Shown piece after piece: positions 11,395-15,298 of a stretch of 46,231 nt of DNA. Location: the NCBI RefSeq assembly GCF_009696175.1, contig NZ_VUMM01000013.1:1-46231 (forward strand). The letters are read 5' to 3'. The first letter of the stretch is position 1, and each line of letters starts with the position of its first letter. Both the position numbers and the translations under genes were made by a program. Below the pieces are notes generated by a model, which was not told where the DNA came from, made no database searches, and saw only the letters and a list, made by a program, of their open reading frames with translations. Source of the stretch: Floccifex porci. GTDB taxonomy: Bacteria > Bacillota_I > Bacilli_A > Erysipelotrichales > Erysipelotrichaceae.

Positions 11395-12306
11395 CTAAAG
11401 ATTCAATCCTTCCCATTCATTAAAACCCAGCATTAAATTCATATTCTGGATAGCTGCTCCACAGGCACCTTTTCCCAGATTATCAAATAATACTGTTACT
11501 CCCACTCTTGTATCATTTCCATATACAATAAGTTCTACACTATCTTTTTTTGCCATTTCATTACCGGAAATCATTCCTTCATTTCTTTGTGATACGTGTA
11601 TTAAGGAAGAATCCTTATACCAATTATTTAATATATCATAAATTTCCTGTTTTCTGTGATTTTCAATAGAAATTGTTGTTGCCATTCCTCGATAATAATC
11701 ACTGACAACAGGATAAAATACTGGGGTTCCCTCTAAACCACAAATTTTTTTCATTTCTGGCAAATGTTTATGCATCTGGTTTAAACCATATATTCGTGGA
11801 GCCATTAAATCCGATGTTTTGTTCTTTTCATACTGCTCAATCATCTTTTTTCCACCACCGGAATATCCAGTTAATGAAAAGCATACAATGCTTTGATTCG
11901 CTTTGATTGCTCCATTTTGAACCAGAGGATATACACCCAATATGAATCCTGTAGCATGACAGCCAGGATTAGCAATCCATCTTTGTGTTTTAATTTTCTG
12001 CCTTTGTTCTTCATTTAATTCTGGCATTCCATAAACCCAGCTATCCAGTGTACGATGAGCCGTAGATGCATCTATGACTTTAGTATGTTCATTTTCAATC
12101 AAAGAAACGGCTTTTATGGCTGCATCATCAGGTAAACAAAGAAAAACAAGATCGGCTTCATTCATTAGCTTTTTTCTTTCCTGTTCATCTTTTCTTTTTC
12201 CTGGATCAATTTCTAATATTTCAATATCTTCTCTTAAAGACAGTCTCTGATAAATTTCCAGACCAGTAGTTCCCGCCTGTCCATCTATATAAATTTTAGG
12301 TTTCAT
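11395..12306 (-). CDS. argC: N-acetyl-gamma-glutamyl-phosphate reductase, type 2
   Basis: A 303-aa NADPH-dependent reductase making N-acetylglutamate semialdehyde. The N-terminus KIYIDGQAGTTGLEI and the short length are those of the type 2 ArgC family, unlike the roughly 345-aa type 1 enzyme found in Bacillus. The catalytic Cys is in NPGCHATGF (about residue 115). The start at 12306 is chosen because it aligns with the family and overlaps argH by 11 nt; an upstream in-frame start would add 32 unrelated residues within argH. Confidence 0.92.
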   Translation of the reverse strand: MKPKIYIDGQAGTTGLEIYQRLSLREDIEILEIDPGKRKDEQERKKLMNEADLVFLCLPDDAAIKAVSLIENEHTKVIDASTAHRTLDSWVYGMPELNEEQRQKIKTQRWIANPGCHATGFILGVYPLVQNGAIKANQSIVCFSLTGYSGGGKKMIEQYEKNKTSDLMAPRIYGLNQMHKHLPEMKKICGLEGTPVFYPVVSDYYRGMATTISIENHRKQEIYDILNNWYKDSSLIHVSQRNEGMISGNEMAKKDSVELIVYGNDTRVGVTVLFDNLGKGACGAAIQNMNLMLGFNEWEGLNL

Positions 12307-13690
12307 CTGATTCACATCCTTTAATAAAATCCTGAATGACTTCAATCTGGCGCTGCACTTCTTCAGGTGATGGTCCTCCCAAAACATTTCTTTGAAGTAC
12401 ACAAGTCTTAAGATCTAAAGCCTGATATACATCTTCTTTGAAATAAGGATGGAAAGATTTCAGTTCTTCTAATGTACAATCATTGATTGCTTTGTTTTCT
12501 TTTGAACAATACCCTACCAGTTTTCCAATCACATGATACGCATCTCTAAATGGAAGTCCCTGTTTTACAAGATAATCTGCACAATCTGTCGCATTGATAT
12601 ATCCATGTAAAGCTGCATTTGCCATTCTTTCTTTACAGACTGTCAATGTATCAAACATTGGATCAATAATATCCAGACACTGTTTTACAGTATCAATAGC
12701 ATCAAATAAAGCTTCTTTATCTTCCTGCATATCTTTATTATAGGCAAGAGGAAGTCCTTTCAGCATACTTAATAAAGACAGTAAAGAACCAAATACACGT
12801 CCGCTTTTCCCCCGTATCAATTCACAGATATCCGGATTCTTTTTCTGTGGCATAATGGAAGATCCAGTTGAATATGCATCATCCAATTCAAAATAATGAA
12901 ATTCTAAAGAGCACCATGATATGATTTCTTCACTTAATCTTGAAAGATGCATCATTAATATACTTAAATCACTGCACAGTTCCACACAATAATCCCGATC
13001 GCTGACTCCATCCAGTGAATTGTCAACTGGGTTTTTAAAACCTAATAATTCAGCTGTCATGTTTCGATCGATTGGATAGGTGGTTGTAGCCAAAGCTCCA
13101 CATCCTAAAGGACATTCATCCATTAGATCATAGGTATTTTCCAGTCGTCTTATATCTCTTTTAAACATATTCGCATAAGCCATCATCCAATGCCCTAAAG
13201 TAATAGGCTGAGCTCTTTGGAGATGTGTATAACCTGGCATGAATGTATCCAGATTTTCTTTTGCATGAATGCATAATGTATTCATAAATTTTAAAAGCAA
13301 TTTTTCAATTTCTTTTATTTCTTTTTTTACATAAAGACGCATATCCACAGCAACCTGATCGTTTCTGGATCTTGCTGTATGAAGCCTTTTCCCCGCATCT
13401 CCTATTCGATTGGTCAATGTTTCTTCAATAAACATATGAATATCTTCATACGAAGATGAAAAGGTTAATTCATTCGATTCTATATCGGTTAATATTTCCT
13501 TCAAACCTTTATGAATCGCTTCTTTATCTTCTTTTGAAATAATTCCCTGTTTTTCAAGCATTTCACTATGAGCCAGGGATCCCTGAATGTCTTGTGCATA
13601 CATTCGACAATCAAATGGAAGGGAAGTATTAAAACTATCTAATTTCGCATCGGCTTCTTTTGAAAAACGCCCTGCCCACATTTTCGCCAT
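12296..13690 (-). CDS. argH: argininosuccinate lyase
   Basis: A 464-aa homotetrameric lyase splitting argininosuccinate into arginine and fumarate. The superfamily signature GSSIMPQKKNPD (about 280) holds the catalytic Ser, and HTARSRNDQV (about 105) and TPGYTHLQ-like GYTHLQRAQP (about 155) are intact. Length is normal. AGGAG precedes the start, and the gene lies 10 nt after argG. Confidence 0.97.
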   Translation of the reverse strand: MAKMWAGRFSKEADAKLDSFNTSLPFDCRMYAQDIQGSLAHSEMLEKQGIISKEDKEAIHKGLKEILTDIESNELTFSSSYEDIHMFIEETLTNRIGDAGKRLHTARSRNDQVAVDMRLYVKKEIKEIEKLLLKFMNTLCIHAKENLDTFMPGYTHLQRAQPITLGHWMMAYANMFKRDIRRLENTYDLMDECPLGCGALATTTYPIDRNMTAELLGFKNPVDNSLDGVSDRDYCVELCSDLSILMMHLSRLSEEIISWCSLEFHYFELDDAYSTGSSIMPQKKNPDICELIRGKSGRVFGSLLSLLSMLKGLPLAYNKDMQEDKEALFDAIDTVKQCLDIIDPMFDTLTVCKERMANAALHGYINATDCADYLVKQGLPFRDAYHVIGKLVGYCSKENKAINDCTLEELKSFHPYFKEDVYQALDLKTCVLQRNVLGGPSPEEVQRQIEVIQDFIKGCESDET

Positions 13691-13700
13691 ATCGTTCTCC

Positions 13701-14951
13701 TTATTCTACACTTGGAAAATGAATTCCTTCTTTTTCAAATAATTCTTTATCGTTTAATGCTCTTACTTTTAATGGTAAACCAAATAAATTGATGAAACCT
13801 TCACTATCGGATTGGTTGTAACAGTCATCTTCATCAAAAGTTGCCATTCCACTTGAATATAAACTGAATGGACTTGTTACCGAACATGGAATAATATTTC
13901 CTTTATACAATTTCAAAGTAACATCTCCTGTTACTGTTTCCTGTGTAGAATCCACAAAAGCAGATAAAGCTTTTCTTAGTGGTGTATACCATTGTCCATT
14001 GTATACAAGATCGGCAAATTTTAATGCGACCTGCTGTTTATAATGCGCTGTTTCTTTATCCAGTGTAATTTCTTCCAGTTTCTCATGAGCCGCATATAAA
14101 ATCGTACCCCCTGGTGTTTCATATACTCCACGTGATTTCATACCTACCAGACGATTTTCCACTACATCCAGTAAACCGATTCCATTGGCTCCTCCTAATT
14201 CATTTAATTTTAAAATGATATCCAATGGTTTCATTTCTTCTCCATTTAAGGAAACAGGAATTCCTTTTTCAAAATGTAAAGAAATTTTTGTAGGTGTATC
14301 TGGAGCATCATAAGGAGAAACACCTAGTTCTAAGAAACCTGGTTTTTGAATTGGTGCCTCATTGGCTGGATCTTCCAGATCCAATCCTTCATGAGACAAA
14401 TGCCATAAGTTTTTGTCTTTTGAATAATTTGTTTCTTTATTGATTTTTAGAGGTATATTATGTTTTTCAGCATATTCAATTTCTTTTTCTCTTGAGTTCA
14501 ATTCCCAGAAACGCCATGGAGCAATGATGTCCATTTCTGGTGCAAATGCTTTAATAGCCAGTTCAAAACGAACCTGATCGTTTCCTTTTCCGGTACAACC
14601 ATGACAAATCGCATCCGCTCCTTCTTTTTTCGCAATTTCAACAATACGTTTGGCAATAATTGGTCTGGCAAAAGAAGTACCCAATAAATATTTTTCATAA
14701 GCTGCTCCTGCTTTAACAGTTGGAATGACATAATCATTCACAAATTCTTCCTGCAGGTCTTCAATATACAATTTAGAAGCCCCTGTTTTTAAAGCTTTTT
14801 CTTCCAGTCCTTCCAGTTCACTTGCCTGTCCTACATTTCCAGATACAGCGATAATTTCGGCTCCATAATTTTCTTTCAGCCAAGGAATCAATACCGATGT
14901 ATCCAATCCTCCAGAATAAGCCAATACAATTTTTTTATACTGTTTTTTCAT
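13701..14951 (-). CDS. argG: argininosuccinate synthase
   Basis: A 416-aa cytosolic enzyme joining citrulline and aspartate with ATP. The N-terminal PP-loop [10 protein letters not shown] (about residues 11-20), GNVGQ and [14 protein letters not shown] (about 115) are the expected nucleotide and substrate motifs. GGGAGG lies before the ATG. It is the first gene of argGHCJBDF and is directly controlled by the T-box leader just upstream. Confidence 0.97.
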
Positions 14952-14989: not shown

Positions 14990-15240
14990 AAAAAAAACGT
15001 CCTTTTTTAATAAAAGGACGTAATTATACGCGGTACCACCTAATTTCCATTCATCTATTATGAATGACACCTTTTTCTTAACGCGAAATAACGATCATTG
15101 CCTCACCTAGTTTCGACAATGCGGTTCCAAGACACGTTCCAGAATATTTCTTTAATAACTTTCACCAGCTGTTATCTCTCTAAAAAAGAAATCTTTCTGT
15201 ACTTCTTCTTTTCATAACCTTTATGCAAAGATTATAACCC
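14990..15240 (-). promoter_or_regulatory. T-box riboswitch leader of the arg operon
   Basis: The minus strand carries the hallmark T-box AGGTGGTACCGCG (15029-15041), followed by the terminator stem ACGTCCTTTT/AAAAGGACGT (14997-15021) with a T-run. Upstream is Stem I material: AGTA, an AGAGAG GA-motif region and GCTGGTGAAAG. In the expected specifier region GGAAC is followed by CGC and then A (codon at 15121-15123), an Arg codon; GGAACGTG slightly upstream is an alternative reading, also containing an Arg codon (CGT). The promoter is TTGAAA (15253-15258) with TATAAT (15231-15236), 16-bp spacer. Uncharged tRNA-Arg should favour antitermination and expression of argGHCJBDF. The specifier call is an inference. 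Confidence 0.93.
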
Positions 15241-15252
15241 TATGAAAATATT

Positions 15253-15298
15253 TTTCAAGTTTTTTTTGAAACTTTTTGAAACTTTTTAAAACTTTTTA
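15253..15298 (-). promoter_or_regulatory. phased A-tracts upstream of the arg promoter
   Basis: On the minus strand four A-runs (T-runs at 15260-15267, 15273-15277, 15283-15287 and 15293-15297 on the plus strand) recur every 10 bp as AAAAAGTTTC-like units, ending 2 bp before the -35 box. In-phase A-tracts bend DNA and can act as UP elements. The outermost tract overlaps the rseP stop codon. Confidence 0.7.

Follow-up and report, generated by a model that had tools for sequence, protein, structure and literature searches.

Phased A-tracts upstream of the argGH T-box promoter of Floccifex porci as a likely extended UP element

The window (the whole stretch of DNA that we analysed, 46,231 nucleotides) belongs to a Floccifex porci assembly of 2.02 Mb in 44 contigs, which we refer to as G000. 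It contains an argGH operon behind a T-box leader, and the promoter of the leader lies against the end of an rseP-like gene. The features are:

12296 to 13690, minus strand: argH, argininosuccinate lyase (lyase and ASL_C2 domains)
13701 to 14951, minus strand: argG, argininosuccinate synthase
14997 to 15021, minus strand: terminator-like stem of the leader, followed by a T-run (sequence scan)
15011 to 15224, minus strand: T-box leader (RF00230; 134.3 bits, against a gathering score of 93)
15231 to 15236, minus strand: -10 element TATAAT, with a 16-bp spacer (consensus scan)
15253 to 15258, minus strand: -35 element TTGAAA (consensus scan)
15260 to 15267, minus strand: A-tract 4 (A8), centre near -41.5, at the proximal UP subsite; position kept in the counterpart from the relative G058
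15273 to 15277, minus strand: A-tract 3 (A5), centre near -53, in the region of the distal UP subsite; position kept in the G058 counterpart
15283 to 15287, minus strand: A-tract 2 (A5), centre near -63
15293 to 15297, minus strand: A-tract 1 (A5), centre near -73, overlapping the rseP stop codon
15296 to 16363, minus strand: rseP-like peptidase M50 gene, upstream of the promoter

The core promoter matches 11 of 12 consensus bases and lies directly 5' of the leader, which would put the start of transcription near 15224. Because the consensus scan finds 5 promoter-like sites in 1.1 kb, versus 4.6 in shuffled sequence, the promoter call rests on its place before the leader and on relatives. The specifier of the T-box, as read by eye from GAACGTG / GAAGCGTG in the compared leaders, appears to be CGT (Arg), so the leader is probably arginine-specific. 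A simple scan of the stretch between rseP and the T-box promoter showed no terminator, so read-through from rseP would reach the terminator of the T-box. For RseP itself, we found six named relatives (54-58% identity) from Absicoccus, Faecalicoccus, Catenisphaera, and Holdemanella, which we take to be members of the Erysipelotrichaceae.

Upstream of the core promoter, the minus strand reads TAAAAAGTTTTAAAAAGTTTCAAAAAGTTTCAAAAAAAAC-TTGAAA. It carries runs of A5, A5, A5, and A8 at an exact 10-bp step (15297 to 15260), and can be divided into the units AAAAAGTTTT-AAAAAGTTTC-AAAAAGTTTC-AAAAAAAA, then C, then TTGAAA-16-TATAAT. A preliminary description of this DNA had reported four A-tracts with a 10-bp period that overlap the rseP stop and end 2 bp before TTGAAA. 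Indeed, the 5' ends of the tracts are exactly 10 bp apart, and tract 1 (15297-15293) overlaps the TAA at 15298-15296. The gap needs correcting, as a single base (C, 15259) separates the last tract, which is A8 rather than A5 like the others, from TTGAAA (15258-15253). The same description had the array filling the whole gap between operons, which is true for the stretch from the rseP stop to the -35 element.

The pattern A5N5A5N5A5N5A5 occurs once in an 846,231-base sample of G000 (window included); 12 order-5 Markov simulations, each the size of the sample (846 kb), did not produce it. Across the five genomes of the genus that we searched, it occurs only as this array, with no occurrence in the four others. 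These chance figures overstate independence, since the array consists of 10-bp units in tandem (Tandem Repeats Finder reports a period of 10, 3.5 copies, and 96% matches), and a single duplication history could give the phasing. We saw no general preference of A-tract arrays for a 10-bp step in the 846-kb sample: arrays of three A4 tracts number 28 at step 10, 35 at step 8, and 35 at step 12. We therefore rejected genome-wide phasing of A-tracts at 10 bp. At least three A4 tracts at 10-11 bp lie upstream of 4 of 165 promoter-like sites, versus 0.55 in shuffles.

We compared the array with the E. coli UP element, which spans roughly -59 to -38. In the part of the published account available to us (PMC5664571), the proximal A-run is at -44 to -41, the distal A-run is at -57 to -54, and a T-run follows at -53 to -47. 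The array shares the proximal A-run, a run of A then T near the distal subsite, a spacing of about one turn, and a place directly upstream of the -35 element. Its A8, at -45 to -38, covers -44 to -41 directly 5' of the -35 element. The distal subsite fits partly: A5 is at -55 to -51 and TTT is at -49 to -47, with a G between them. Thus, relative to the element described in that part of the account (PMC5664571), the distal A/T run of the array is shifted and interrupted by a G, and two extra A-tracts stand upstream at the exact 10-bp step. Against the full E. coli consensus, the array matches 10 of 14 specified positions, a score that is equalled or passed by 3 of 18 other argG promoters and by 9 of 60 other T-box promoters.

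In the nearest relative (G058), the junction between rseP and the leader is recognisable (483 of 626 alignment columns are identical), but the DNA of the array itself has drifted. The centres of the A-runs are nevertheless at -53 and -42 in G058, versus -53 and -41.5 in the window; the tracts at -63 and -73 are absent. The leader and argG of G058 are on separate contigs (about 134 bases follow the leader before its contig ends, and argG has 87 bases upstream on another contig), so the assignment of this leader to argG rests on synteny and similarity. Past the T-box terminator, the leader's contig (L059 1-135, G058:C161) continues into sequence other than argG, which has a start codon close to its end and may come from a mobile element or an assembly join. 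At five loci from two other genera (L025, L027, L030, L031, and L032), the argG leader appears, by eye, 3' of tsf instead of rseP, so the tracts are not explained by which gene lies upstream.

We then asked how A-runs are placed in the family's T-box promoters. An argG gene turned up in 32 of the 195 family genomes, and we obtained the loci of 30 matches. From these 30 loci and the G058 leader, we dropped 11 that lacked a match to the T-box pattern (in L023, the contig ends) and one with too little upstream sequence (L043). This left 19 argG-type T-box promoters from eight genera, window included, which we aligned on the -35 element. As controls, we took 87 other T-box loci (40 that we fetched, and 27 and 20 from two listings), of which 27 were dropped for want of an acceptable promoter call or of enough sequence, leaving 60. 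The 40 fetched loci were picked by hand, mostly from the upper part of the T-box list, and only the control promoters were held to a score floor of 8.5 (the argG promoters scored 9.0 or higher). Three genomes, all from one genus, have tandem pairs of T-boxes, 23-24 bases apart (G040:C17:76661-77112, G081:C62:2155-2606, and G106:C226:14017-14469).

The 19 argG promoters contain 43 runs of A4 or longer, versus 19.5 in shuffles, and the runs are phased at 10-10.5 bp, with a maximum z of 14.7 that none of 500 shuffles reached; this and the other z values overstate independence because related T-boxes share ancestry. Without the window and G058, z was 10.8, and when each genus was represented by a single promoter, 95% of 300 draws were above the shuffled 95th percentile. 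The phasing recurs in the 60 control T-box promoters, which come from these same genomes (z = 14.4). For all 79 promoters together, z reached 28.2 at a period of 10.5, versus 0.9 (1.7 at period 10) for 55 decoys, which are promoter calls farther upstream with 65% AT, versus 70% in the real set. No resampling of the few AT-rich decoys reached the z of the 79-promoter set (0 of 2000), and anchoring the 79 promoters on the -10 element instead gave z = 25.2. The mean match to the UP consensus was 7.08 in the real set and 5.65 in the decoys. T-runs are also phased, at a different phase from the A-runs, which is compatible with the UP consensus in the part of the account cited above (PMC5664571). 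In contrast, 53 loosely predicted promoter-like sites from G000 showed weak or no phasing (P = 0.03 for A4, 0.156 for T4, and 0.774 for A3), which raises the question of whether the phasing is specific to T-boxes: it may be a habit of T-box promoters or of all true promoters. What began as a single repeat becomes a checkable pattern: across the family's 79 T-box promoters that we examined, A- and T-runs at the positions of an UP element follow the helical phase. Four phased A4 tracts are found in the window alone among the 19 argG promoters; 15 of the 19 count one and 3 count two.

Taken together, we think it likely that the array serves the argGH T-box promoter as an extended UP element, unusually long and regular, that would bind the alpha subunits of RNA polymerase and strengthen the promoter. 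It is best read as a promoter booster of an ordinary kind in an unusually regular form. The preliminary description had proposed that the tracts give strong curvature and can contact the alpha subunits, and the second half has fared better: the fit to the UP subsites, the conservation of the proximal positions in G058, and the phasing in the family's T-box promoters all point to a contact, as predicted from the sequence. The positions of the runs are conserved in related promoters, in phase with the -35 element. The alpha C-terminal domain appears to be intact in G000, where the segment VRSYNCLK...NLGKKSL is kept in both rpoA products. The residues VRSYNCLK and NLGKKSL are presumably those that contact DNA. 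The product of the rpoA on contig C8 aligns to a solved RNA polymerase alpha chain (residues 12-314 of 318).

A different reading is that slippage multiplied the 10-bp unit AAAAAGTTTC and gave extra tracts with no effect on transcription. The tandem structure of the array, the lack of the two distal tracts in G058, and the confinement of the pattern to one of the genus genomes searched would all be expected from such a history. However, the positions of the proximal tracts recur in G058, and the phasing is present in T-box promoters of the family whose upstream sequence is different. We consider a neutral repeat quite improbable for the array as a whole, although it may hold for the two distal tracts.

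The preliminary description had also claimed strong intrinsic curvature and had suggested a curvature prediction as a check. We ran it with two wedge models, whose values we checked on repeats of the A4T4 type (curved) and the T4A4 type (straight). In the 846-kb sample, these models place the array in the top 0.1-1% of positions for curvature. Depending on the model and the window length, 171 to 1406 loci in the 846 kb are at least as curved (the array's own locus included). For 51-bp stretches, the array is at the 99.4 and 99.9 percentiles, with 649 and 171 loci reaching its value, its own included. Among 165 promoter-like sites, 8 in one model and 30 in the other reach the curvature of the array (own site included). 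So a bend is predicted, but it is moderate rather than strong. Because so many loci and promoter-like sites are equally curved, we set aside strong curvature as the main property of the array. Phased A-tracts need not imply exceptionally bent DNA. In the unit AAAAAGTTTC, a T-run lies half a turn from each A-run; the predicted bends for AAAAAGTTTC and AAAAAGCGCC are 57.9 versus 113.0 in one model and 72.6 versus 79.7 in the other.

These predictions also bear on the idea that the array works through static curvature alone, by wrapping DNA around RNA polymerase without contacts to alpha. In one wedge model, the bend of the window's promoter (63.8) is the highest of the 19 argG promoters (mean 41.4; none of the 18 others reach it), and only 3 of 60 other T-box promoters reach it. 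Against this, many positions in the genome are equally curved, 30 of the 165 promoter-like sites reach the array's value in the second model, and the T-runs half a turn off oppose the bend, to an extent on which the models differ. We regard static curvature alone as very improbable.

If the array is an extended UP element, then A8 (-45 to -38) would be the proximal subsite and A5 (-55 to -51), with the TTT that follows, the distal one. The C-terminal domains of alpha would bind along a single face of the helix and stimulate initiation from the TTGAAA-16-TATAAT core. The two far tracts (-63 and -73) would have been added in this lineage, probably when the 10-bp unit was duplicated, and could offer additional in-phase contacts and a moderate bend. 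The promoter would then produce leader transcripts at a high rate, with the T-box gating argGH according to whether tRNA-Arg is charged or uncharged. With a strong promoter ahead of an attenuator that senses tRNA, the dynamic range would be wide.

The argG promoters have another feature, which the UP element does not account for: they are enriched in the words TGAAA and TTTCA. Outside the -35 element, we counted 3.05 words per promoter in the 19 argG promoters, versus 1.21 in 53 other promoter-like sites of G000. In a slightly shorter stretch, the counts were 2.84 for argG and 1.27 for the 60 other T-box promoters. Offsets of the words show phasing at about 11 bp in the argG promoters (z = 12.0, or 9.5 without the window and G058), versus z = 1.4 for the 53 other sites. 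A dyad TGA[AT]A-N5-TTTCA overlaps the -35 element and spacer in 5 of the 23 promoters listed, and a version with N3 occurs in one more. The sample has six dense noncoding clusters (at least four words in about 50 bp): at argG, at an oppB-like gene, at aroB-/pheA-like genes, and three at other genes (names by eye). The clusters at the oppB-like and aroB-/pheA-like genes would fit an amino-acid regulator. Half-sites about one turn apart might bind a putative amino-acid regulator of argGH, in a lineage where no ArgR is recognisable. We consider this unlikely, as the control T-box promoters also have phased words (z up to 7.1), and the spacing and orientation of the words differ between genera. 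The controls also weaken the case that the enrichment is a feature of argG only.

As for which regulator it might be, no match to ArgR (PF01316) was over the cut-off in the 195 family genomes, with weaker matches in 4 (the one in G000 is an ArsR-like protein, as named by eye), and PF02863 has no match in G000. With no ArgR above the cut-off in these genomes, we rejected an ArgR operator. CodY-like 15-mers with up to 3 mismatches are present in 10 of the 19 argG promoters, versus about 0.7 in shuffles, and the best one in the window has 3 mismatches. However, such matches are also found in 12 of the 60 control T-box promoters (about 2.2 in shuffles) and in 9 of the 53 other G000 promoters (about 2.5 in shuffles), and CodY-like boxes are not enriched in the noncoding sample (8, versus 6.7 in shuffles). 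CodY itself (PF08222 and PF06018) has no match over the cut-off in 19 genomes, with weaker matches in 2 and 1, respectively; the weak match in G000 is a GntR-like protein (named by eye). We rejected a CodY operator because no CodY scored above the cut-off in the 19 genomes and its boxes are not enriched in the noncoding sample.

Both readings could overlap: in a family apparently without ArgR or CodY, the argG promoters might share a conserved, helically phased TGAAA/TTTCA array for a putative regulator, of which the array in the window would be the most regular instance, overlapping the UP element. This seems rather unlikely to us. If it were true, promoter strength and repression would share one sequence above the T-box. 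The dyad TGAAAAATATTTTCA is formed by the -35 element and spacer of the promoter in the window (15243-15257), and a dyad with the same spacing is found in G058 and at three loci of the genus g29. At least four TGAAA/TTTCA words lie upstream of the oppB-like permease gene (L088 3501-3560, G000:C1). Between the divergent aroB-/pheA-like genes (L094 7031-7100, G000:C12) is a perfect palindrome of the CodY type, AATTTTCTGAAAATT, overlapped by a second copy with 2 mismatches.

Returning to the extended UP element, a similar arrangement is that of the plc promoter of Clostridium perfringens, another low-GC Firmicute with phased A-tracts just upstream. The plc tracts reportedly act more at low temperature, and plc is not a T-box gene. 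In the accessible part of a study of Helicobacter pylori (PMC4081817), the A-boxes of sabA are proposed as sites for the C-terminal domain of alpha; the shared features are the 10-11 bp spacing upstream of the promoter and a slippage-prone tract beside the -35 element. According to the same part of that study (PMC4081817), tract length at sabA varies between strains and tunes an adhesin, whereas the array precedes a biosynthetic operon with the T-box as a second layer of control. In the titles and openings of abstracts that we screened, we found no literature on UP elements of T-box promoters or of Erysipelotrichaceae argG promoters.

G000 has two divergent rpoA genes (L199 134-1084 on C19 and L200 1465-2421 on C8), which are 38% identical over 313 columns. 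A genome with two RNA polymerase alphas would resemble Francisella and a small number of other cases, as mentioned in the part of a report that was available (PMC3294249); the assembly may also be mixed. Each copy is followed by rplQ, with the same protein encoded by DNA that is 90.5% identical over 613 columns, and the upstream ends of the two contigs share the same 127 bases.
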